DNA of 64,000 bases, from NCBI GenBank assembly GCA_902791035.1, contig CADAUA010000002.1:124001-188000 (forward strand). Direction: 5' to 3'. The position numbers and the translations under genes were made by a program. The notes under the pieces were generated by a model. The model saw only the letters and a list, made by a program, of their open reading frames with translations. It was not told the origin of the DNA and did no database searches. Origin of the DNA: an uncultured Coriobacteriaceae bacterium. Its GTDB lineage: Bacteria > Actinomycetota > Coriobacteriia > Coriobacteriales > Atopobiaceae. Positions 5,403-58,648 of this stretch are shown here, piece by piece. Within the stretch, counting starts at the first letter, position 1; every line of letters begins with the position of its first letter.

Positions 5403-5560
5403 GGGTACCTCCTCCTCGCGCGGGCTTGCCCGCGGATGCGTGACGTGCTGGGTGCGTGCCGACCTTATTTGCTGGCTTTATACCCCCAATACCAGCGGGA
5501 GAAACGTGACGCTGGCAAGCGGTTCCGGCGGTGGCGTGACAGTCGGGGCATGACGGCAGC

Positions 5561-5648
5561 GTGACAGCAGGACCGAGGTGGCGTGACAGCAGGACCGAGG
5601 TGGCGTGACGGCAGGACCGAGGTGGCGTGACAGCAGGACCGAGGTGGT
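5561..5648. repeat. Four tandem 22-bp GTGACA repeats
   Basis: Units reading GTGACAGCAGGACCGAGGTG plus GC begin at 5561, 5583, 5605 and 5627 with an exact 22-bp period. Degenerate copies extend upstream to about 5535. Related 22-bp arrays are at 8930-8994 and 9373-9438, and two single units lie in dnaX at about 45096 and 45150. The rest of the 5403-5707 gap holds only ribosome-binding and promoter-like sequence for the flanking divergent genes; I see no other feature in it. Confidence 0.9.
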
Positions 5649-8072: not shown

Positions 8073-8116
8073 GTTGGCGGTGCGACGGCGCGGCAGCGCG
8101 GCAGCGCGGCGGAAGC

Positions 8117-8143
8117 CCATTTGTCCGCCACAAAGGGGCAGAT
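8117..8143. repeat. Possible degenerate single copy of the 38-bp repeat
   Basis: The sequence GCCCATTTGTCCGCCACAAA followed by GGGCAG resembles one decayed unit of the 38-bp palindromic family found in arrays at 42.7, 50.7 and 57.7 kb. Confidence 0.4.
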
Positions 8144-8929: not shown

Positions 8930-8994
8930 GGGGTCGGAGCTCGTGTCACGCGGGGTCGGAGTTGCTGTCACGCGGGGTCGGAGTTGCTGTCACG
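8930..8994. repeat. Three tandem 22-bp repeats, left array of a 510-bp unit
   Basis: Units GGGGTCGGAGNNNNTGTCAC plus GC start at 8930, 8952 and 8974, exactly 22 bp apart. They are the inverse of the array at 9373-9438, so the gap between two genes is bounded by inverted arrays. Confidence 0.9.
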
Positions 8995-9254: not shown

Positions 9255-9372
9255 CAGGCGATAGCGGGAATCCCGATGCGAAAAGACCTCGTTATCGGCT
9301 TGTGGGCGATGGCGCACATGGGTCGGCGGGTCAGCGACATAAGGCCAGACTCCCGACGAGCGGCAGGGGAGC

Positions 9373-9438
9373 GTGACACGAGCTCCGACCCCACGTGACA
9401 CGAGCTCCGACCCCACGTGACACGAGCTCCGACCCCAC
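9373..9438. repeat. Three tandem 22-bp repeats, right array
   Basis: Units GTGACACGAGCTCCGACCCC plus AC begin at 9373, 9395 and 9417. They are reverse-complement relatives of the 8930-8994 array and end 6 bp before the stop codon of the radical SAM gene. Confidence 0.9.
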
Positions 9439-9444
9439 GGGAGG

Positions 9445-16158: not shown

Positions 16159-16287
16159 GCTGCTTCCTCCTGCTCATCTCACGCCAAGAAGTACCCCGGC
16201 CGCGCCCCGCCCGCGCCCTCCCCATGTTCCCTCACACGGCGTATCGTGTGGGCCATGGAATCGGGAAACAGGCGTGAGGAGAAGGCC

Positions 16288-16980
16288 ATGGCGGAGAACG
16301 ACGTGGATAGGATCGCGGCGGAGCTCGTGCGGGCGGGCATCGAGGAGGATCGGGCCCACTGGCTGGCGTCGGGTGCGCCCGCCGACCTGTCGGGCCTGTT
16401 CAGGGACAACGAGTCGATCGAGTCCCTGGACCTCTCCGGATGGGACGTGTCGTGCGTGAGGGACATGAGCGGCATGTTCTACGGCTGCTCCTCCCTGCGC
16501 GCCGTGGACGTCTCCGGCTGGGACACCTCCCGTGTGGGGAGCATGAGCGGGATGTTCTACCAGTGCTCCTCCCTCGAGTCGCTCGACCTCTCCGGCTGGG
16601 ACGTGTCGTGCGTGGAGGACATGGTGCGGATGTTTTACCAGTGCTCCTCCCTCAGGTCCGTGGGCGTCTCCGGCTGGGACACCTCCGTCTGCGTCGACTT
16701 CAGCCGGATGTTCGACGGCTGTGGGTCCCTCGCGTCCCTCGACCTCTCCGGCTGGGACCTGTCGTCGGCCAGCGATGAGGGCATGCTCGCAGGGTGCTCC
16801 TCCCTCCGCGAGCTGCGGACCCCGCGCGAGGGCTCCCTGGGCGTGTTCTCCTGCGCCGCTGGGTCCCTGCCCGCCGGCGCGAGGATAGTGGTGTCGAGGG
16901 ACAACCTCGACTGGTACCGCGACTACCTAGGCTCCCGCGGCTTCGAGGTCGTGACGTGCGGGGGCCGGAGCGAGGCGTAG
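16288..16980 (+). CDS. DUF285/BspA-like leucine-rich repeat protein, short paralogue
   Basis: A 230-residue protein with five DUF285-type repeats of about 26 residues (pattern LDLSGWDVSCVRDMSGMF, then YGCSSLRA). They follow a 45-residue head (DRIAAELVRAGIEEDRAHWL) and precede a 40-residue tail (PAGARIVVSRDNLDWYRDYL). Most BspA-like proteins are secreted or wall-anchored; this one has no signal peptide, membrane segment or sorting motif, so it looks cytoplasmic. The start is ATG 16288 with GAGGAG upstream, matching the start of the longer paralogue 98 bp downstream. Function is unknown; the repeats suggest protein binding. A minor alternative start is ATG 16255. Confidence 0.85.
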   Translation: MAENDVDRIAAELVRAGIEEDRAHWLASGAPADLSGLFRDNESIESLDLSGWDVSCVRDMSGMFYGCSSLRAVDVSGWDTSRVGSMSGMFYQCSSLESLDLSGWDVSCVEDMVRMFYQCSSLRSVGVSGWDTSVCVDFSRMFDGCGSLASLDLSGWDLSSASDEGMLAGCSSLRELRTPREGSLGVFSCAAGSLPAGARIVVSRDNLDWYRDYLGSRGFEVVTCGGRSEA

Positions 16981-16999
16981 CCGCCGCCCGTGCCCCCGC

Positions 17000-17036
17000 G
17001 GCGCGGCGTCCCTCTCGCGGGCGCCGCGCCGCGTCT
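17000..17036 (+). terminator. Possible terminator between the DUF285 paralogues
   Basis: A 9-bp stem (17000-17008 with 17022-17030) with a 13-base loop is followed by GCGTCTATCATCG, which is moderately AT-rich. Confidence 0.45.
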
Positions 17037-17077
17037 ATCATCGTTGCCATCAGGGTCGTCGGACGAGGGAGGCTGCC

Positions 17078-18196
17078 ATGGCAGAGAGGGACGTGGAGCG
17101 GCTGGCTGTGGAGCTCGCACGTGCTGGCATCGAGGGGGACCGGGCCCGCAGGCTCGCGGCGGGGGCGCCCGCCGACCTGTCGGGGCTGCTCAGGGACAAC
17201 GAGTCGATCGAGTCCCTGGACCTCTCCGCCTGGGACGTGTCTAGCGCGGAGGACATGAGCTGGATGTTCGAGGGCTGCGGGTCCCTCCAGCGCCTCGACG
17301 TCTCCGGCTGGGACGTGTCGCGCGCGGAGGACATGAGCGCGATGTTCTCCGGCTGCTCCTCGCTCGCGTCGCTCGACCTCTCCGGCTGGGACGTGTCGGG
17401 CGTCACGGACATGGGCTGGATGTTCGACGGCTGCTCCTCCCTCGGGTCCCTGGACCTCTCCGGCTGGGACGTGTCCGGCGTCACGAAAATGGGGCGGATG
17501 TTTCATTACTGCGCCTCCTTGGAGTCGCTCGGCGTCTCCAGTTGGGACGTGTCCGGCGTCACTAGCATGCCCATGATGTTCTGCGGCTGCTCCTCCCTAG
17601 GGTCGCTCGACGTCTCGGGCTGGGACGTCTCGCGCGTCACGGGCATGGGCGGCATGTTCGAGGGCTGCTCCTCCCTGGGCGCCCTCGACGTCTCGGGCTG
17701 GGACGTCTCGCGCGTCACGGACATGGACGAGATGTTCTGTGGCTGCTCCTCCCTCGAGTCCCTCGACGTCTCCGGCTGGGACGTCTCCCGCGCGAGCTGG
17801 ATGAGCAGGATGTTCGACGGCTGCTCCTCCCTCCGGTCCCTCGACGTCTCCGGCTGGGACACCTCCGGATGCCACGGCATGCCCTGGATGTTCTCCGACT
17901 GCGCGTCCCTCCAGCGCCTCGACCTCTCCGGCTGGGACGTCTCCAACGCCCGGGGCGAGTCCGACGACGAGGGCACGGCCGGCATGCTCGATGGCTGCGC
18001 CTCCCTCCGCGAGCTGCGCGTGCCCCGTGCGGGCTACCTGAGCTGCGAGGAGACCGGTGCCGCGGGCTCCATGCCGGCTGGCGCGCGGATAGTCATCCCT
18101 GCCGACCTCCTCGACAGGTACCGCGACGACTGGGGCGGCCACGGCTTCAGGCTGATCACGGCCGGCGAGTACGAGGGCCTGAGAGAGCGCTGCTAG
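17078..18196 (+). CDS. DUF285/BspA-like leucine-rich repeat protein, long paralogue
   Basis: A 372-residue protein with ten 26-residue DUF285 repeats (78-bp DNA period; pattern LDVSGWDVSRVTDMDEMF, then CGCSSLES). The head and tail are the same types as in its upstream neighbour: ERLAVELARAGIEGDRA at the start and PAGARIVIPADLLDRYRD near the end. It arose from the same ancestor by duplication, with repeat number changing from five to ten. No signal peptide or anchor is present. Each repeat contributes a Cys in a GCSSL or GCASL phrase, so the protein is cysteine-rich, which would suit a reducing cytoplasm or a metal-binding stack. Function unknown. Confidence 0.87.
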   Translation: MAERDVERLAVELARAGIEGDRARRLAAGAPADLSGLLRDNESIESLDLSAWDVSSAEDMSWMFEGCGSLQRLDVSGWDVSRAEDMSAMFSGCSSLASLDLSGWDVSGVTDMGWMFDGCSSLGSLDLSGWDVSGVTKMGRMFHYCASLESLGVSSWDVSGVTSMPMMFCGCSSLGSLDVSGWDVSRVTGMGGMFEGCSSLGALDVSGWDVSRVTDMDEMFCGCSSLESLDVSGWDVSRASWMSRMFDGCSSLRSLDVSGWDTSGCHGMPWMFSDCASLQRLDLSGWDVSNARGESDDEGTAGMLDGCASLRELRVPRAGYLSCEETGAAGSMPAGARIVIPADLLDRYRDDWGGHGFRLITAGEYEGLRERC

Positions 18197-29900: not shown

Positions 29901-30017
29901 GGTGCCTCCGGGTGCGCGCGTCTGTGGCTGATGGGCTTGTTGCGGGCAGGGTTCGCCCTGCGACAAGCCTATCCTGCGTGCGCAAGGTAACGCAAGGGTG
30001 ACAACGATGCGTTGCCC

Positions 30018-30160
30018 GTGTCAGGGGGACGGTGCTCTTGACACGAGTCGGGGAAGACGGGACACGTCCGTGTCGAGAGAACCGTCCCCCTGACACGTCC
30101 GCAACAGGGTGAGCGTGTCGAGAGAACCGTCCCCCTGACACGCGGTCCCCCTGACACGCG
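30018..30160. repeat. Cluster of CGTCCCCCTGACAC palindromic repeats
   Basis: Hairpin units with GTGTC/GACAC ends enclosing a GGGGGACGGT core lie at 30018-30045 (one orientation), 30069-30097 and 30114-30142 (the other), plus a partial copy at 30143-30160. The two right-hand units are identical over 29 bp. They fill most of the 29901-30178 gap. Confidence 0.9.
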
Positions 30161-38181: not shown

Positions 38182-38259
38182 CCTGTCACAAAGGTGTCAG
38201 TCACTTTTGTGACATTCGAGAATTTATGTCACAAAAGTGACTGACACTTCTGTGACAGG
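38182..38259. repeat. 78-bp TGTCACAAAAGTG inverted repeat (copy 1)
   Basis: Two 33-base arms (38182-38214 and 38227-38259, two mismatches) surround a 12-base loop, filling the ilvC-ilvD gap and ending 14 bp before the ilvD start. A shorter member of the family is at 53910-53942. It may modulate transcription into ilvD or protect the upstream mRNA end. Confidence 0.9.
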
Positions 38260-39955: not shown

Positions 39956-40023
39956 GTGGGCACCAGGGGGTACTCCCCCAGTGCCCGGTATCGGGCACTG
40001 GGGGAGTACCCCCTGGTGCCCAC
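39956..40023. repeat. Double GGGCAC palindromic repeat (copy 3), perfect 32-bp arms
   Basis: Arms 39956-39987 and 39992-40023 are perfect reverse complements around GTAT. Each arm is itself nearly palindromic. The element fills the gap between ilvD and the DUF815 gene, 20 bp before the latter's start, and is closely related to 1434-1498. Confidence 0.95.
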
Positions 40024-40042
40024 AACCCCACCAAGGAGGAGC

Positions 40043-42668: not shown

Positions 42669-42678
42669 GGGCGGGCTG

Positions 42679-42925
42679 CCCGTTTGCGGCTGGCAAACGT
42701 GCTGCGGCGACGGGCAAACGTGCTCCCGCGCGGCGCAAGCGTGCTCCCGCGACCGCTGCCCGTTTGTGGCGCGCAAATGGGCAGCAACAGCGGGCAAACG
42801 TGCTCCCGCGACCGCTGCCCGTTTGTGGCGCGCAAATGGGCAGCGGCGACGGGCAAACGTGTGGCTCTGCGCTACAAGAGGGCAGAAGCTTCCCGCATAA
42901 GGGCAGATGCGGCGTGCAAACGTCA
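42679..42925. repeat. 38-bp palindromic repeat family, array A (degenerate)
   Basis: The ilvA-dnaX gap (42669-43012) holds several copies of CCCGTTTGTGGCGCGCAAAT and GGGCAAACGTGCTCCCGCGA, in part inverted. Units are less regular than in arrays at 50709-50898 and 57681-57860. A TATACT hexamer at 42974-42979, close before dnaX, may be its -10 box. Confidence 0.85.
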
Positions 42926-43012
42926 ACTTCTGCTCCGCCCCATGCTGCCCCCGCCGGCCCGCCTGCCCCCGGGTATACTGGGAGCCCACAAGCCAGGAAC
43001 CGGGGGAGCCGC

Positions 43013-45424
43013 ATGGAATCTCTCTACACCAAATACCGCCCGCAGACGTTCGAGCAGGTCGTTGGCCAGCGCCACGTGGTCGAGACCCTCGAGCGCGCGA
43101 TCCTCGAGGGCCGCACCAGCCACGCCTACCTCTTCTGTGGCCCGCGCGGCACCGGCAAGACCACCATGGCGCGCCTGCTGGCCAAGGCCCTCATGTGCGA
43201 GTCCGGCCCCGGCAAGCTCCCCGACGGCACCTGCGAGCAATGCCGCCTGATCGCCGCCGGCGAGCATCCCGACGTCATAGAGCTCGACGCTGCCTCCCGC
43301 ACCGGCGTGGACGACGTACGCGAGCAGATCATCAGCCGCGTCAACTACGCCCCCGTCCGAGGCCGTTGCAAGGTCTATATCATCGACGAGGTCCACATGC
43401 TGAGCCAGGCCGCTTTCAACAGCCTGCTCAAGACCCTCGAGGAGCCGCCGGCGGGCGTGACCTTCGTCATGTGCACGACCGACCCGCAGAAGGTCCTCCC
43501 CACCATCCTCAGCCGCGTCCAGCGCTTCGACTTCCACGCCATCGCGCCGGAGGAGATGCGCGACCACCTGGCCTACGTGTGCGACCAGGAGGGTTTCTCC
43601 TACGAGCCGGGGGCCCTCGACCTGGTGGTCCGCCACGCCCGCGGCGGCATGCGCGATGCCCTGACCTCCCTCGAGCAGCTGGCCACCTTTGGCATGGGCA
43701 AGGTCACGGTCAAGGTGGCGCAGGACTTCCTAGGCGAGGCGTCCGGCCTCATGCTCGGCGAGGTCACGCGCGCCATGGCAGGTCGCGACGTGGTCACGCT
43801 CTTCGACGAGGTCGCCTCGCTCGTGGACGCCGGCCGCGACCTGCTGCAGTTTGCCCGTGAGCTCGCCGCCCACGTTCGCGACGTCTACGTGGTGGCCGTG
43901 GCGGGCGCAAGCGAGAAGGTCGTGTCGGTCACGGGCGACGAGCTGGAGGCTCTGCGCCAGGAGGCCGCGGCCTTCGGCTCCGCCGACCGGCTCGCGCGGG
44001 TGCTTGCCCTTCTTGGCGATGCCTGCAACGACATGCGCACGGCCGCGAACCAGCGCCTGGTGCTCGAGGTGGCCTTCACCAAGGCCGCGCGTCCCGAGAC
44101 CGACCTGACGCTCGAGGCCCTTGCCGAGCGCGTGGTCGAGCTCGAGCATGCGGTGGCCGTGCTCGCAAGTGGCGCGGCCGTGGCAACGCCGCCGATGCCA
44201 ACAAGGACTACGACGCCACTGCCGCAGCCGGTTACGCCTGCCCTACAGGTCGCGACAAGGCCCATGCCGCAGCCGGCGCCCGCGTCACATGCCCAGCCGG
44301 CGCCGCGGCCGGTCGCAGCCCCGCAGGCTCCGACTGCCCCACGGCGCCCCGCCGCGGTGGCCGCGGCCCCGCAGCCAGCACCGGTGGCACCTAGGCCCAC
44401 CGCGCCACGGCCGGCCGCGCAGTCCCAACCCGTGGTTCAGCCCCAGCCGGCGCCGTACCCCCAGTCTGCGGCCCAGCCGATGTCCGACGGCAACCTCCAG
44501 CGCGCGTGGAAGCGCGTGGTGGAGCAGCTCGTGGCCAAGGACCCGTCCAAGGGCGCCCTGCTCCTGAGCTCGACGCCGGTCTCCGACGATGGCAAGAAGG
44601 TCCTCGTGTCGCTTCCCAAGGGGTCCCGTTTTGCAGCGAAGATGCTGGAGCGTGCAGACGTGCGCGAGTTCATGCGGCCCGTGATCGAGCAGGCCCTGGG
44701 CCGGCGCGAGGTCCTCTTCGTGGAGTCGAGCATGGCAGCGACTGCGATATCCAGGGCTGATCGCGCGGCTGGGCGGCCGGCCGTCGCAGCTCCGCGGACA
44801 AGTGCTGTGCCCGCCCCGCGGCCCGCGCCCGCGCCCACGCCAGCACCGGCACCCGCCCCGCGGCCCGCGCCTGTACCCGCGTCAGCCCCGAGGCCCGCAC
44901 CTGCCCCGAAGCCTGCGCCTGCACCCGCACCGGCACCCGTGCCCGCACCGGCACCCGCGCCCGTGCCCGCACCGGCACCCGCGCCCGTGCCCGACGACTT
45001 CGTGCCCTATGACGACCTGGCGGCAGCTCCGTTCGCGGAGGACGTGGAGGACGCGCCCTTCGCGTCGGCCTTCTCGGCGCCGGCCGCACCCCCGCGTGAC
45101 AGCAACTCCGACCCCGGTGGCACCGACCCCGGTGGCGCCGCGGCCCCGCGTGACACGGGACCCGACCCCACGGCACCCACGGCACCTCCGGCCCCGGCGG
45201 CTCCCGCGGCAGCCCCGGCGGGGCTCACGCCGGAGTTCGCCGACCTGGCCGCCATGCTCCAGGACGCCTTTGGCGCGCCGGTGTCGCTGAGTGTGGAACC
45301 TGCGGATGATGAGTCGGCCGAGGTGGACGATGCCGACTCGACGGACGATACTGGAGAGACCGAAGAGAGCGAGTTCGTCGACGAGCCCGTCGACGACTAC
45401 GACGACGACCCTGACGAGGCCTAG
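43013..45424 (+). CDS. dnaX: DNA polymerase III subunits gamma/tau
   Basis: The 803-residue protein has the clamp-loader core: Walker A GPRGTGKTTMAR, a zinc-binding cysteine group (CESGPG...GTCEQC), Walker B IIDEVHMLSQAAFNSL and the SRVQRFDFH sensor region. It is followed by a long Pro/Ala-rich linker, a conserved C-terminal tau-like domain around residues 490-580 (WKRVVEQLVAKDPSKGALL), a second Pro/Ala linker and an acidic tail. It loads the sliding clamp at the replication fork. Two units of the 22-bp GTGACA repeat family lie in frame at about 45096-45117 and 45150-45170. I see no A-rich slippage site for a programmed frameshift. It starts the dnaX-ybaB-recR cluster. Confidence 0.95.
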   Translation: MESLYTKYRPQTFEQVVGQRHVVETLERAILEGRTSHAYLFCGPRGTGKTTMARLLAKALMCESGPGKLPDGTCEQCRLIAAGEHPDVIELDAASRTGVDDVREQIISRVNYAPVRGRCKVYIIDEVHMLSQAAFNSLLKTLEEPPAGVTFVMCTTDPQKVLPTILSRVQRFDFHAIAPEEMRDHLAYVCDQEGFSYEPGALDLVVRHARGGMRDALTSLEQLATFGMGKVTVKVAQDFLGEASGLMLGEVTRAMAGRDVVTLFDEVASLVDAGRDLLQFARELAAHVRDVYVVAVAGASEKVVSVTGDELEALRQEAAAFGSADRLARVLALLGDACNDMRTAANQRLVLEVAFTKAARPETDLTLEALAERVVELEHAVAVLASGAAVATPPMPTRTTTPLPQPVTPALQVATRPMPQPAPASHAQPAPRPVAAPQAPTAPRRPAAVAAAPQPAPVAPRPTAPRPAAQSQPVVQPQPAPYPQSAAQPMSDGNLQRAWKRVVEQLVAKDPSKGALLLSSTPVSDDGKKVLVSLPKGSRFAAKMLERADVREFMRPVIEQALGRREVLFVESSMAATAISRADRAAGRPAVAAPRTSAVPAPRPAPAPTPAPAPAPRPAPVPASAPRPAPAPKPAPAPAPAPVPAPAPAPVPAPAPAPVPDDFVPYDDLAAAPFAEDVEDAPFASAFSAPAAPPRDSNSDPGGTDPGGAAAPRDTGPDPTAPTAPPAPAAPAAAPAGLTPEFADLAAMLQDAFGAPVSLSVEPADDESAEVDDADSTDDTGETEESEFVDEPVDDYDDDPDEA
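45096..45170. repeat. 22-bp GTGACA repeat units inside dnaX
   Basis: GTGACAGCAACTCCGACCCC at 45096 and GTGACACGGGACCCGACCCC at 45150 match the intergenic 22-bp arrays at 8930 and 9373. In dnaX they encode the linker phrases RDSNSDPGG and RDTGPDPTAP. Confidence 0.8.
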
Positions 45425-49996: not shown

Positions 49997-50098
49997 GGTT
50001 TTGCGAGCCGCCGCGTGGGTATACTAGGACTCAGACCGGATAGGGCCGGTTGTGGCCGTACGTTGTTTTTCCCGCGAGGGAAGAGAGAGGAGCGCGTC

Positions 50099-50644
50099 AT
50101 GGCAGTCGATTTTGAGAACTCCGAGACCAAGAAGAACCTCGAGGCCGCCTTTGCCGGCGAGTCCCAGGCCTCCCGCAAGTATGCCTACTACGCCAGCAAG
50201 GCCAAGAAGGAGGGCTACGTCCAGATCTCCGACATCTTCACCGAGACCTCTGGCAACGAGTCCGAGCACGCCAAGCTCTGGTTCAAGTACCTCCACGGCG
50301 GCGACGTGCCCGACACCCTGACCAACATCAAGGATGCCGCGGCTGGCGAGAACTACGAGTGGACCACCATGTACAAGGACTTCGCCGAGAAGGCCGACGA
50401 GGAGGGCTTCAAGGAGATCGCCGCCAAGTTCCGCATGGTCGGCGCCATCGAGAAGCACCACGAGGAGCGCTACAACAAGCTGGCCGAGCGCGTGGAGAAG
50501 GGCGAGGTCTTCGAGCGCGAGGGCGTCAAGGTGTGGAAGTGCATCAACTGCGGCCACCTGCACGTCGGCCCCACCGCCCCCAAGGTGTGCCCCGTGTGCA
50601 ACCACCCGCAGAGCTACTTCGAGGAGCAGGCGCTCAACTACTAG
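50099..50644 (+). CDS. rbr: Rubrerythrin
   Basis: The 181-residue protein has a ferritin-like diiron domain with Glu residues in [24 protein letters not shown] and [11 protein letters not shown]. The C-terminal rubredoxin domain has two CXXC pairs in [10 protein letters not shown] and CPVCNHP. It reduces hydrogen peroxide in anaerobes, receiving electrons from rubredoxin or NADH-linked partners. The ATG at 50099 follows GAGAGGAGCG. A TATACT -10 box is at 50020-50025, and an AT-rich palindrome lies further upstream; a strong terminator follows. The nearby Rrf2 regulator could be involved. Confidence 0.96.
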
Positions 50645-50681: not shown

Positions 50682-50717
50682 GGGCCCGGGACGTGGCAAG
50701 CGTCCCGGGCCCGTTTG
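50682..50717 (+). terminator. Terminator after rubrerythrin
   Basis: A perfect 12-bp G+C stem (50682-50693 with 50701-50712, loop TGGCAAG) is followed by GTTTG. Its 3' arm merges into the first 38-bp repeat. Confidence 0.75.
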
Positions 50718-50898
50718 TGGCGGGCAAACGTGCACCCGTCACCGCGGCCCGTTTGTGACCCGCAAACGTGCTCCCGCCACCGCGGCCCATTTGTGGCGGG
50801 CAAACGTGCACCCGCCACCGCGGCCCATTTGTGACCCGCAAACGTGCACCCGCCACCGCGGCCCGTTTGTGGCGGGCAAACGTGCTCCGCCGGCGGGC
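50709..50898. repeat. 38-bp palindromic repeat family, array B (five exact-period units)
   Basis: Units reading GCCCGTTTGTGGCGGGCAAA then CGTGCACCCGCCACCGCG start at 50709, 50747, 50785, 50823 and 50861. Each contains a CGTTTG/CAAACG-type hairpin. A second short repeat (ATAAGGGCAGGCTTGCCCCG) occurs twice at about 50901-50940. The array fills the gap (50645-50967) between convergent genes. Confidence 0.95.
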
Positions 50899-50967
50899 AT
50901 AAGGGCAGGCTTGCCCCGGATAAGGGCAGGCTTGCCCCGCAAACGTGCAGCCGCGCGGCTGCCCGCC

Positions 50968-52074
50968 TCACTCCACGGGCACCGTGACCACGAAGGCCTT
51001 GGCATAGGCCCCGTAGGGCTGCACCAGCTCCAGGCCAAAGCCGTGCATGTCGCAGATCCGCTTACAGATGGAGAGCCCTAGGCCATAGCCGCCACCGGAC
51101 CCGCGCGCCGAGTCCCCGCGCGAGAAGGGCCGGAAGAGCGCCTCCGCGGACGTCGTGATGGGCGCGCCTGTGTCGGCCACGCAGGCGGTGGCCAGGCCCG
51201 GCAGGCGCACGAGCCCCACGGCGATGGTGCCCCCGGCCGAGTTGTGCCGGATGGCGTTGGCGAGGAGGTTGGCAAAGACCCGGCCCAGCTGCCGCTCGTC
51301 GGCCTCGATGGGGCAGGGTTCCTCGGGCACCGCGGCCACGAGGTGCATGCCGGCGCGTTCCGCGTCCGAGTAGGCCGCAGCACAGGCGCTCAGGAGGAGC
51401 TGGGATAGGTCGACCTCGCTCATGCGCAGCTCGAAGCCCTCGCTGTCCAGCTGGGAGTACTCGAGCAGCATGGTCACCAGGTCGCCCATGGCTGCGGACT
51501 TGGCGTTGATGGCCTCCAGGCAGCCTCGCTCCTCGCCCTGCGGCACGACCCCGTCGAGAAGTGCCTGGGAGAGGCCGGAGATCGCCGTCACCGGCGTGCG
51601 CAGGTCGTGGGCCATGTCGGAGACCATTAGGTTGCGGGTGCGCTCGACCTGGTGGCGCTCCTCGTCGCGCCGGCGCTGCAGCTCGTCTACCCTGCGGCCC
51701 GCCACCACGCCAAAGAGGCCGCTGCCAAGGGCGATGGGGGCCGCCAGGAGCGCGATGGCGAGCACGGAGACAAGGATCCCGGTACCCAGCGCGGAAGGCT
51801 GCACCTGCTCGGGGTGGCGAAGGGCCTGCGTGACCACGGCCAGCAAGTGGCCAAGGACGGCCAGCATGCCGTCGGAGCCAAGCCGCTGGGCCTCGTCCGT
51901 CACGTAGGCTACGAAGGGCTGGAGCTGCGGTGCGAGAAGGACGGACTCGAGCCAGAGGACCAGGGCCTCCGCCACGACCACGCCCACGAGGACGATGGCG
52001 AAGGTCCGGGCGAGGTAGACGCGCAGCTCGTGCATGGCGTCCGTGGGCTCGGCGGGCTTGTTGGCGTCTGCCAT
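50968..52074 (-). CDS. Sensor histidine kinase
   Basis: The 368-residue kinase has two membrane segments (IVLVGVVVAEALVLWLESV and ILVSVLAIALLAAPIAL) flanking an extracytoplasmic loop of about 70 residues. A phospho-acceptor His follows in SDMAHDLRTPVTAISG, then an ATPase domain with NLLANAIRHNSAGG, ADTGAP and GGYGLGLSICKRI. It starts 6 bp after its response regulator, whose reading frame is broken. By itself the kinase is intact. The loop sequence (RLGSDGMLAVLGHLL) gives no clue to the signal. Confidence 0.92.
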   Translation of the reverse strand: MADANKPAEPTDAMHELRVYLARTFAIVLVGVVVAEALVLWLESVLLAPQLQPFVAYVTDEAQRLGSDGMLAVLGHLLAVVTQALRHPEQVQPSALGTGILVSVLAIALLAAPIALGSGLFGVVAGRRVDELQRRRDEERHQVERTRNLMVSDMAHDLRTPVTAISGLSQALLDGVVPQGEERGCLEAINAKSAAMGDLVTMLLEYSQLDSEGFELRMSEVDLSQLLLSACAAAYSDAERAGMHLVAAVPEEPCPIEADERQLGRVFANLLANAIRHNSAGGTIAVGLVRLPGLATACVADTGAPITTSAEALFRPFSRGDSARGSGGGYGLGLSICKRICDMHGFGLELVQPYGAYAKAFVVTVPVE

Positions 52075-52079
52075 CGGAC

Positions 52080-53909: not shown

Positions 53910-53942
53910 GTGTCACAAAGGTGTCTGACACTTTTGTGACAC
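53910..53942. repeat. TGTCACAAAAGTG palindrome overlapping the GH43 stop codon (copy 2)
   Basis: A 33-base near-perfect palindrome (GTGTCACAAAGGTGTC, then its complement). It supplies the last nine codons (VSQKCQTPL) and stop of the GH43 gene. It is related to the 78-bp repeat at 38182-38259. Confidence 0.85.
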
Positions 53943-55473: not shown

Positions 55474-55706
55474 TGCACCCGCGATGCCCTAGGCCCGGAG
55501 GCCAACTGGCCCTTCTCGGCGCCAAGCACGTCGCGGGTGCAGCCAAGGCGGCGTTGCCGCAGCTGAGGGCTGCCGCCCTTGCACCCGCGATGCCCTAGGC
55601 CCGGAGGCCAACTGGCCCTTCTCGGCGCCAAGCACGTCGCGGGTGCGGACCCTGCTGCGTTTCCGCAGCTGAGGGCTGCCGCCCTTGCACCCGCGACGCG
55701 ACGTGC
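55474..55706. repeat. 106-bp tandem repeat, two copies plus a partial
   Basis: Units begin at 55474, 55580 and (partial) 55686 with TGCACCCGCGATGCCCTAGG. They contain GCACCCGCGA near one end and its inverse TCGCGGGTGC about 60 bp on, so each could form a long hairpin. The two full copies differ at only a few positions in the segment after the inverse arm. Nothing in them looks like a gene. Confidence 0.93.
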
Positions 55707-55831
55707 CACGCTGCTAGCAGGCACTTCTCGCTCGGGGATGCGCCGCGGGTGCACACACATCCTTATCCCAGAGCAAATAGTTATCGGCTAGAACGATATC
55801 CATAGCCAGAAAAACAGCATAGCCAAAAGCC

Positions 55832-56068: not shown

Positions 56069-57388
56069 ATGCCGTTCGCACTCGACCCCAGCTTCGCCCA
56101 GGACACCGAGAAGCACTTCGACACCCTGCAGGTCCACGCCGGCTACTCGCCCGATCCCGTAACCGGGTCTGCGGCCCTGCCCATCTACGCCTCCGCAGCC
56201 TTCGAGTTCAAGGATGCCGAGGACGGCGCCGCCAAGTTCGCTCTCACGCGCCCGGGCAACGTCTACGGCCGCCTGACCAACACCACAACCGACGCCGTGG
56301 CCGCCCGCGTGGCCGCCATCGAGGGCGCCGCGGGCGCCGTGGCCGTTGCCTCCGGTCATGCGGCGGAGATCCTGGCCCTGACCAACCTCGTGGGCGCCGG
56401 CGACGAGATCGTTGCCTCCGACTCCCTCTACGGCGGCACTTGGAACATCTTTCTGCACACCTTGGGCGACCTGGGCGTGAAGACCACCTTCGTGGAGAAC
56501 AACGACATCGACGCCTTCGTGGCCGCCACCACCCCCAAGACCAAGCTCTGGTACGTGGAGACCATCGGCAACCCGCTGGTGGACGTGGCCGACGTGCCCG
56601 CCATCGTGCAGGCTGCCAACTCCCTGCCCAGCCCCGTGCCCGTCTTCGTGGACAACACCTTTGCCACGCCCTACCTCTACCGCCCGGCCGAGGACGGCGC
56701 GGCTGTGGTCATCGAGTCGCTGACCAAGTGGATCGGCGGCCACGGTGCCACCTTGGGCGGCGCCGTGGTGGACACGGGCAAGTTCGACTGGAAGCAGGAT
56801 CCCGAGAAGTGGCACACCCTGGCCAAGCCCGATCCCTCCTACCACGGCCTCGTCTTCGCGGACGCAGCACCGGCGGCCCCCTTTGCCACCCGCGTTCTGG
56901 CAAACAAGCTCCGCGACTTCGGCCCCACGCTCAGCCCCTATGCGGCCCAGCTCATCGGCATCGGCATCGAGGACCTGTCGCTGCGCGTCCAGCGCCACTC
57001 CGACAACGCCCTGGCCGTGGCCAAGTACCTCAAGAGCAACCCCAAGGTCACGTGGGTGCGCTACTCCGGCCTTGAGGACGACCCCAGCCACGAGGTGGCC
57101 AGCCGCATCCTCAAGCACGGCTTTGGCGGCGTGGTGGTCTTCGGCGTGCAGGGTGGCCGTGAGGCGGGCCTGAACGTCGTCTCCAACGTCAAGCTCTTCA
57201 CCCACCTGGCCAACGTGGGCGACGCCAAGTCCCTGATCATCCACCCCGCCTCCACCACGCACTCCCAGCTCACGGCCGAGCAGCTTGAGGCCGCACACCT
57301 CTCCGAGGACCTGGTGCGCCTCTCTGTGGGCATCGAGAACGTGGACGACATCATCGCGGACCTGGACCAGGCCATCGCCAAGGCATAG
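56069..57388 (+). CDS. metY: O-acetylhomoserine aminocarboxypropyltransferase (sulfhydrylase)
   Basis: A 439-residue PLP enzyme of the Cys/Met metabolism family. Visible are FDTLQVHAGYSPDP at the start, RPGNVYGRLTNTTTDAV, ETIGNPLVDVAD, and the PLP lysine in ESLTKWIGGHGAT. Length and the N-terminal motif match MetY rather than the shorter MetB/MetC enzymes. It makes homocysteine from O-acetylhomoserine and sulfide, the direct sulfhydrylation route to methionine. The ATG follows AAAAGGAG. It has its own promoter and long leader, and stands alone. Confidence 0.93.
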   Translation: MPFALDPSFAQDTEKHFDTLQVHAGYSPDPVTGSAALPIYASAAFEFKDAEDGAAKFALTRPGNVYGRLTNTTTDAVAARVAAIEGAAGAVAVASGHAAEILALTNLVGAGDEIVASDSLYGGTWNIFLHTLGDLGVKTTFVENNDIDAFVAATTPKTKLWYVETIGNPLVDVADVPAIVQAANSLPSPVPVFVDNTFATPYLYRPAEDGAAVVIESLTKWIGGHGATLGGAVVDTGKFDWKQDPEKWHTLAKPDPSYHGLVFADAAPAAPFATRVLANKLRDFGPTLSPYAAQLIGIGIEDLSLRVQRHSDNALAVAKYLKSNPKVTWVRYSGLEDDPSHEVASRILKHGFGGVVVFGVQGGREAGLNVVSNVKLFTHLANVGDAKSLIIHPASTTHSQLTAEQLEAAHLSEDLVRLSVGIENVDDIIADLDQAIAKA

Positions 57389-57575: not shown

Positions 57576-57680
57576 TTTGCGTACGTTTGCGTGCTGGTCC
57601 CTGCCTACGCGGTTCCGCCCGTTTGCGGGTGGCTTCTGCACGTATGCCCGCCGCAGCAGCACGTATGACCGCCGCCGGAG

Positions 57681-57860
57681 CACGTTTGCCCGCCACAAAC
57701 GGGCAGCGGTGGCGGGAGCACGTTTGCCCGCCACAAACGGGCAGCGGTGGCCGGAGCACGTTTGCCCGCCACAAACGGGCAGCGGTGGCCGGAGCACGTT
57801 TGCCCGCCACAAACGGGCAGCGGTTGCCGGAGCACGTTTGCCCGCCACAAACGGGCACCA
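57681..57860. repeat. 38-bp palindromic repeat family, array C (five exact-period units)
   Basis: Units beginning CACGTTTGCCCGCCACAAAC then GGGCAGCGGTGGCCGGAG start at 57681, 57719, 57757, 57795 and 57833. They are the reverse complement of array B at 50709-50898 with the same 38-bp period. Degenerate copies extend upstream to about 57600. The array fills the gap between convergent metY and nth (57389-57872). Confidence 0.95.
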
Positions 57861-57872
57861 GCCTCCCGCGCG

Positions 57873-58577
57873 CTACCCCCGCCGTCGCTCGGCCTTGGGG
57901 GTGAACCACCTGTTGGGCTGGCCTGCGCTGGGACAGATGTCCACCAGCGGGCATGCCTCGGGGTCCTTGGCACAAACGGGCCGCTGCGACGTGCAGACCT
58001 CCCGCCCGAAGTGGATCCACTGCTCGTTGACCGGGGCCCAGAGCTCGCGGGGGATGGTCTCCAGCAGGTCCTTCTCGGCCGCTGCGGGCGTGGCCGCCGA
58101 CGTAAGCCGCAGGCGCGAGGAGATCCGGTACACGTGCGTGTCCACCGCAATGCCATCCACGATCCCAAAGGCCTTGTTGAGCACGATGTTCGCCGTCTTG
58201 CGTCCCACGCCCGGCAGCCGCACCAGGTCCTCCATGGTGTGCGGCACTTGGCCGCCGTAGTCGCTCACGATCATCTGGGCGCAGGCCACGCAGTGGTCGG
58301 CCTTGGCCCGCCAGAAGCCGATGCTGCGGATCACCTCGCCCACCTCGGCGACGTCGGCGCCGGCCATGGTCGCGGCGTCCGGCCAGCGGCGGAAGAGCTC
58401 GGGCGTCACGCGGTTGACCGCGGCGTCCGTGGTCTGGGCTGAGAGGAGCACACAGATCACCAGACTGAAGGGATCCGTGTAGTCCAGTGCGCTCTCCACG
58501 CCGGCATACCGTTCGCCGAGACGCCTGCAGACCTCGACCGCCCGCTCCGACCTCGTCCTCTTGGATTCGCGTGCCAT
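57873..58577 (-). CDS. nth: Endonuclease III
   Basis: The 234-residue protein has the Nth fold: LLSAQTTDAAVNRVT, the helix-hairpin-helix with catalytic Lys in LPGVGRKTANIVL, and the catalytic Asp in IAVDTHVYRISSR. The iron-sulfur cysteines are CTSQRPVC, then AKDPEAC, then PLVDIC: spacing 6-6-5 instead of the usual 6-2-5. It removes oxidised pyrimidines and nicks abasic sites. The start is ATG 58577, seven bases from AGGAGGG; an ATG at 58583 is too close to that site. It is divergent from glgB. Confidence 0.92.
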   Translation of the reverse strand: MARESKRTRSERAVEVCRRLGERYAGVESALDYTDPFSLVICVLLSAQTTDAAVNRVTPELFRRWPDAATMAGADVAEVGEVIRSIGFWRAKADHCVACAQMIVSDYGGQVPHTMEDLVRLPGVGRKTANIVLNKAFGIVDGIAVDTHVYRISSRLRLTSAATPAAAEKDLLETIPRELWAPVNEQWIHFGREVCTSQRPVCAKDPEACPLVDICPSAGQPNRWFTPKAERRRG

Positions 58578-58648
58578 CCGCATCCCTCCTTACCGACCGC
58601 TCACCGCCCGCGCACCGACGCTTTGCCGCCCATGCCGGGCAGGCTCCC

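Follow-up and report, generated by a model that had tools for sequence, protein, structure and literature searches.

The 38-bp palindromic repeat that recurs five times between two convergent genes at 50709..50898 raises the question of what kind of element it is and how it came to lie there. An initial annotation had likened the repeat to REP/BIME elements that are mobilised by RAYT transposases, and had noted a second exact array, a degenerate cluster and a possible relic in the same window. The window, meaning the whole 64-kb stretch of DNA analyzed here (C2:124001-188000), belongs to a high-GC genome of 2.69 Mb in 37 contigs. We examined the repeat in the window, in the rest of its genome and in related genomes.

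Arrays in the window and the genes beside them

The arrays and their neighboring genes, the latter named from their translations, are as follows.

8115..8139, strand not assigned: relic, a single diverged palindrome GCCCATTTG-TCCGCCA-CAAAGGGGC
42678..42926, + strand: third array, three palindromes plus 21-bp modules on the same 21/38-bp lattice
50015..50644, + strand: rubrerythrin-type ORF, upstream of array 1
50683..50713, + strand: terminator-like hairpin GGGCCCGGGACG..CGTCCCGGGCCC, judged by eye
50709..50898, + strand: array 1, five 38-bp units, 190 bp (unit starts 50709, 50747, 50785, 50823, 50861)
50899..50950, + strand: continuation of array 1, 21-bp modules with CATAAGGGC and CAAACGTGC words on the same lattice
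50968..52077, - strand: sensor histidine kinase gene, convergent with the rubrerythrin gene
56069..57388, + strand: O-acetylhomoserine-type (MetY-like) gene, upstream of array 2
57616..57679, - strand: continuation of array 2, 21-bp modules CATACGTGC, CATACGTGC and CAAACGGGC
57680..57856, - strand: array 2, five palindromes with a 38-bp period and the spacer TGGCGGG throughout (palindrome starts 57680, 57718, 57756, 57794, 57832)
57873..58583, - strand: Nth-like endonuclease III gene, convergent with the MetY-like gene

Each unit of array 1 joins a head-to-head palindrome, GCCC[GA]TTTG-N7-CAAACGTGC (also written GCCCGTTTG-N7-CAAACGTGC), to a GC-rich linker of 13 bp. TRF gave an 87% match for array 1 at a period of 38 and a better one, 95%, at a period of 76, because its spacer switches between TGGCGGG and TGACCCG from unit to unit; a 76-bp dimer repeat thus describes array 1 better. 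Array 2 matched at 97% with a period of 38 and runs in the opposite orientation to array 1 (249 nt, 82% complementary). The two five-unit exact arrays in opposite orientation were thus borne out, as was their placement between convergent genes: rubrerythrin(+)/histidine kinase(-) for array 1 and O-acetylhomoserine-type enzyme(+)/Nth(-) for array 2. The terminator-like hairpin 3' of the rubrerythrin gene abuts the first unit of array 1. The third array lies at 42.7 kb between the co-directional ilvA and dnaX (names again from translations) and ends in the variant CAAACGTCA. This is the cluster that had been called degenerate; it is present but less degenerate than described, since its half-sites keep to the 21/38-bp lattice. 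The possible relic, which had been placed near 8117, fits the pattern of the family. The initial annotation had missed the underlying 21-bp module and the make-up of the 38-bp unit, two half-sites in inverted orientation.

We rejected a coding role for the arrays, because 38 is not a multiple of 3 and the long ORFs through them are products of GC-richness. Two other repeats were observed in the window. Coding-type 78-bp repeats (26 residues) lie in a probable repeat-protein ORF at 16278-18021, and an intergenic 106-bp tandem repeat of 2.4 copies, with inverted ends TGCACCCGCGA / TCGCGGGTGCA, lies at 55474-55730.

Copy number, module anatomy and the 21/38-bp lattice

From fetched stretches of the genome we collected 263 half-sites at ~30 intergenic loci, one of which has an assembly gap (Ns) in its array that may affect exact unit numbers. 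The REP-like view had been said to fail if the unit were limited to the window or lay at unpatterned positions; the genome-wide search gave neither outcome, and the high copy number and extragenic position are those of REP/BIME elements. The degenerate palindrome, searched genome-wide with <=2 mismatches, gave 68+66 matches versus 1+1 for the reversed pattern, and GCAAACGTGC gave 89 matches versus 4 in the control. In a scan of 462 kb for TTTG-Ng-CAAA, which had no lattice assumption built in, g=7 was found 65 times, g=8 12 times, and any other gap from 3 to 15 at most five times. Chance origin is excluded by these two sets of counts and by the excess at g=7.

The 21-bp module consists of a 9-bp word, ~6 variable bases and ~6 GC-rich bases. 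The word is the half-site (consensus CAAACGTGC / CAAAYGGGC, C[AT][AT]ANG[TG]GC), and two inverted half-sites make up the 25-bp palindrome (9-7-9) of the 38-bp unit, in keeping with the 20-40 bp of REP/BIME imperfect palindromes. Successive half-sites on the same strand were 21 bp apart in 88 cases and 38 bp apart in 70, or were separated by sums of these steps; spacing was off the lattice in ~2%. Facing half-sites had an offset of 8 (a 7-bp spacer) 58 times and of 9 eight times, the offset of 9 occurring in perfect palindromes that stand alone and in a single tandem pair. Identical arms were found in only 3 of 40 palindromes, where permutation predicts 10.4 (p = 0.0035), and in 30 of the 40 the bases beside the two arms differed (A on one side, G on the other). 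Spacing, inversion offsets and asymmetric arms together give the alternating orientation with regular spacing that characterizes BIMEs.

Distant loci have their macro-architecture in common. Their arrays align over 250-310 bp at ~70-80% identity, several pairs without gaps, and across 160 locus pairs there were 7519 mismatches versus 98 gap openings (~77 to 1), several of the latter being 17, 20 or 21 bp, near the lattice steps. The strict register holds despite 20-30% divergence. Spacers were homogeneous within several loci and differed between loci, which points to local amplification. We also found seven solitary perfect palindromes, GCACGTTTG-N8-CAAACGTGC, most with a G-rich NNGGGGGT loop. 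At L064:1433-2140, other palindromes (AACGCTTAGGGCGGCCTAAGCGTT, CACGCTTACGTCGGCCTAAGCGTG) and a GGCCGGCGGCCCC-rich repeat were observed beside solitary CAAACGTGC palindromes.

With so strict a register, a phased protein-binding array is conceivable, in which a putative double-stranded DNA-binding protein would occupy each 21-bp module and spacing would be selected for cooperativity or chromosome organisation. The module length equals two helical turns, departures from the lattice and gap openings are as rare as given above, and the core words appear conserved while the linkers vary. However, the search pattern fixes several core positions, which builds in part of the conservation seen within the word (the spacing does not depend on it), and tandem duplication alone would keep the spacing inside one array. 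Moreover, the centres of facing half-sites are 16 bp apart and those of back-to-back half-sites 22 bp, which are not both integral turns, and no candidate protein was identified. We regard this explanation as rather unlikely. A similarly low probability attaches to the wider reading that the loci are putative protein-binding arrays chromosome-wide, in which selection would keep the 21-bp modules and 38-bp inverted pairs in strict register and a putative lineage-specific protein would bind them, or that they spread by a non-RAYT mechanism.

Transposase genes and occurrence in relatives

The window was correctly annotated as free of Y1 transposase genes; the genome has five Y1_Tnp genes, on contigs C31, C23, C17, C4 and C1. 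Their products are PF01797 proteins with a C-terminal helix-turn-helix-like segment (alignment inspected), are related to the REP-associated tyrosine transposase model with scores below its cut-off, and resemble TnpA-Y1 subclass 2.1/TIRYT (PMC6006769, PMC3733652). Each of the five genes is flanked by its own distinct repeat family. All five families are multicopy, F038 only threefold above control, and F035 and F037 also make 22- to 23-bp tandem arrays. All five have copies in the window, several of them as 22-bp tandem arrays. The window copies of these families, whose RAYT/TIRYT genes lie elsewhere in the genome (loci L034-L038), are located as follows.

1434-1513: RAYT-family copy
5559-5646: RAYT-family copy
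8930-8994: RAYT-family copy
9372-9439: RAYT-family copy
30017-30160: RAYT-family copy
38184-38257: RAYT-family copy
39958-40037: RAYT-family copy
45087-45173: RAYT-family copy
53911-53941: RAYT-family copy

A preferred neighbourhood of the 38-bp arrays with F035 repeats was considered and rejected: F035 copies follow four arrays, which is not clearly above background. Among the Y1/HTH homologues of related genomes (L111-L135), most have inverted flanking repeats, many with GGGGAC, and these flanks match the TIRYT consensus of the literature.

The search for a Y1/HUH gene flanked by single 38-bp units, which had been proposed as a check, yielded none among the five genes of the genome, and an alignment search of the genome found no sixth, degenerate or decayed RAYT. 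In 53 units inspected with their flanks, neither GT[AG]G nor CGTC was conserved as a tag; GTG occurred inside the loop at some of the loci only. A GGGG[AT]C-type motif was likewise absent from the 38-bp arrays on inspection, the solitary palindromes having only their NNGGGGGT loops.

These data bear on the possibility that the repeat is a true REP/BIME family that one of the genome's five RAYT/TIRYT proteins now mobilises in trans. The presence of these PF01797/HTH proteins, the similar tandem arrays of F035 and F037, and the faint likeness of the NNGGGGGT loops of solitary palindromes to the GGGGAC at RAYT flanks are consistent with it. However, the repeats beside each RAYT gene form a family of their own, unrelated to the 38-bp unit, and the 38-bp arrays lack GGGGAC/GGGGTC, the cognate motif. 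The published pairing of each tnpA gene with a single repeat type (PMC6006769) also argues against such mobilisation. We consider it unlikely, and for this family the annotated link to RAYT transposases was not supported.

The repeat is restricted to its source genome. There was no exact match in 139 other genomes of the same family and no copy in viral contigs. A shorter palindrome occurred in 25 places in the source genome versus 0-2, a background level, in the three genomes tested from the nearest genus. Among 84,980 species genomes there were nine scattered single matches; we rejected these as true family copies, as they look like chance. In the open-access literature searched, no paper linked Coriobacteri* to intergenic repeats or Olsenella to palindromic repeats.

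The nearest relative, G049, allowed comparable sites to be inspected. Its amino-acid identities are 93% for rubrerythrin, 95% for MetY and 94% for IlvA, and it keeps the gene order rubrerythrin-HK-RR-MetY. Its rubrerythrin-HK gap contains a terminator-like hairpin similar to that of the window and at the same place after rubrerythrin (by eye), GGGGAC-type repeats and a small inserted ORF, and no array. Just 3' of the ilvA stop lies a GGGGAC-type repeat, again without an array, and the stretch examined showed no dnaX beside ilvA. We concluded that the arrays are lineage-specific, and that G049 has a different repeat type 3' of the same genes. This suggests that the niche at these gene ends is used and that the family occupying it is exchanged, as judged from two comparable sites.

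Genomic position, origin and known systems

By heuristic GC3-based gene calls, hand-corrected with Pfam, the loci divide into approximately 13 between convergent genes, 13 between tandem genes and 5 between divergent genes. Background gaps in the sampled 462 kb were 54:111:40 (convergent:tandem:divergent), and thus the convergent enrichment (13/31 versus 54/205) is weak. In the oriented tandem loci the array lay in the sense direction in 7/9, often beginning <100 bp after the stop codon. Array orientation showed no visible bias with local GC skew or replication strand. A tRNA was nearby at two of the searched loci only, and the genes beside the sampled arrays and solitary palindromes had unrelated functions. 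The Rfam search matched no family at the arrays; a lysine riboswitch (RF00168, 58 bits) was recorded at L033:4027-4193.

Could the arrays be RNA elements at transcript 3' ends, acting as bidirectional terminators or exonuclease barriers? Their start shortly past stop codons, mostly in the sense direction, and the hairpin that array 1 abuts agree with such a role, and at most loci the RNA folded better than shuffles, if moderately so (mean z -2.8 sense, -2.1 antisense). However, the two strands fold about equally well, the palindrome arms avoid perfect pairing, there is no U-tract, and five loci are in divergent gaps. No covariation or compensatory changes between spacers and linkers were found. 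Given this moderate gain on both strands and the lack of covariation, an RNA-only explanation is not favoured, and we judge it improbable. The regular repeats with short palindromes might also recall CRISPR, integron attC or another known array system, a reading with almost no chance of being right given ~30 loci, a strict 21/38 lattice without variable inserts or unique spacers, linkers that are themselves repeats, and no Rfam family at the arrays.

The structure of the family, its alternating unlike units, its intergenic dispersal and its local amplification are those of BIMEs. The REP/BIME likeness originally proposed therefore stands as to dispersal, intergenic position, alternating palindromic half-sites and absence at comparable sites in the nearest relative, and falls as to the tag and the RAYT link. 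Because both tag and cognate transposase are missing, we call it an orphan REP/BIME-like family. We think it probable that this non-coding, lineage-specific family was once dispersed and then locally amplified, and it may have a role near 3' ends. Two unlike half-sites face across 7 bp to form an asymmetric palindrome, and palindromes and single modules are strung on the strict 21/38-bp lattice. The most economical account is that copies were dispersed in trans by a transposase-like activity that has since been lost or become unrecognisable, for which a lost or distant RAYT-type enzyme would be the simplest candidate, and that tandem duplication then amplified them locally. The arrays would have been tolerated or kept near gene 3' ends, where by analogy with the BIME-2 arrays of E. 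coli they may now serve as protein-binding or hairpin elements, for example as a boundary, a transcript end or a site for topoisomerase or nucleoid protein. This genome holds five families still linked to their transposases and another, large and very regular family that has none, a case that bears on how a REP-like family can come into being, part with its enzyme and still persist.

Several known systems invite comparison with the orphan family. Iteron arrays (21-22 bp direct repeats) likewise have 21-bp direct repeats with a conserved core, but the 38-bp family lies at ~30 chromosomal intergenic loci, in inverted pairs and with no linked replication gene. CGTC-tagged REPs (PMC3733652) are also dispersed palindromes without a dedicated transposase; the 38-bp family differs in having no conserved CGTC end tag, CGTC occurring only in a few terminal words (CAAACGTCA). 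The repeats of TIRYT / TnpA-Y1 subclass 2.1 (PMC3733652, PMC6006769) are closer in setting, being dispersed short intergenic repeats of the same genome, some in 22- to 23-bp tandem arrays, and G049 has GGGGAC-type repeats 3' of the same genes. In contrast to the 38-bp family, they flank the gene of their own transposase, and their sequence includes a GGGG[AT][CG]A[CG]-like motif.

Relative to the BIME-2/REP elements of E. coli (y, z2 units), the 38-bp family is without the GT[AG]G tag and the cognate RAYT, is of other sequence, has extra head-to-tail 21-bp modules and is confined to a single lineage. BIME-2 elements serve as gyrase sites in E. coli (PMC6379681); putative gyrase binding at the 38-bp arrays is, by analogy, no more than a lead. 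Both consist of short palindromes that lie between genes, alternate in orientation, come in two unlike unit types and are joined by fixed linkers; both are tandemly amplified, occur at many loci and favour gene ends. The unlike arms of the 38-bp palindrome are comparable to the alternating y and z units of BIMEs.
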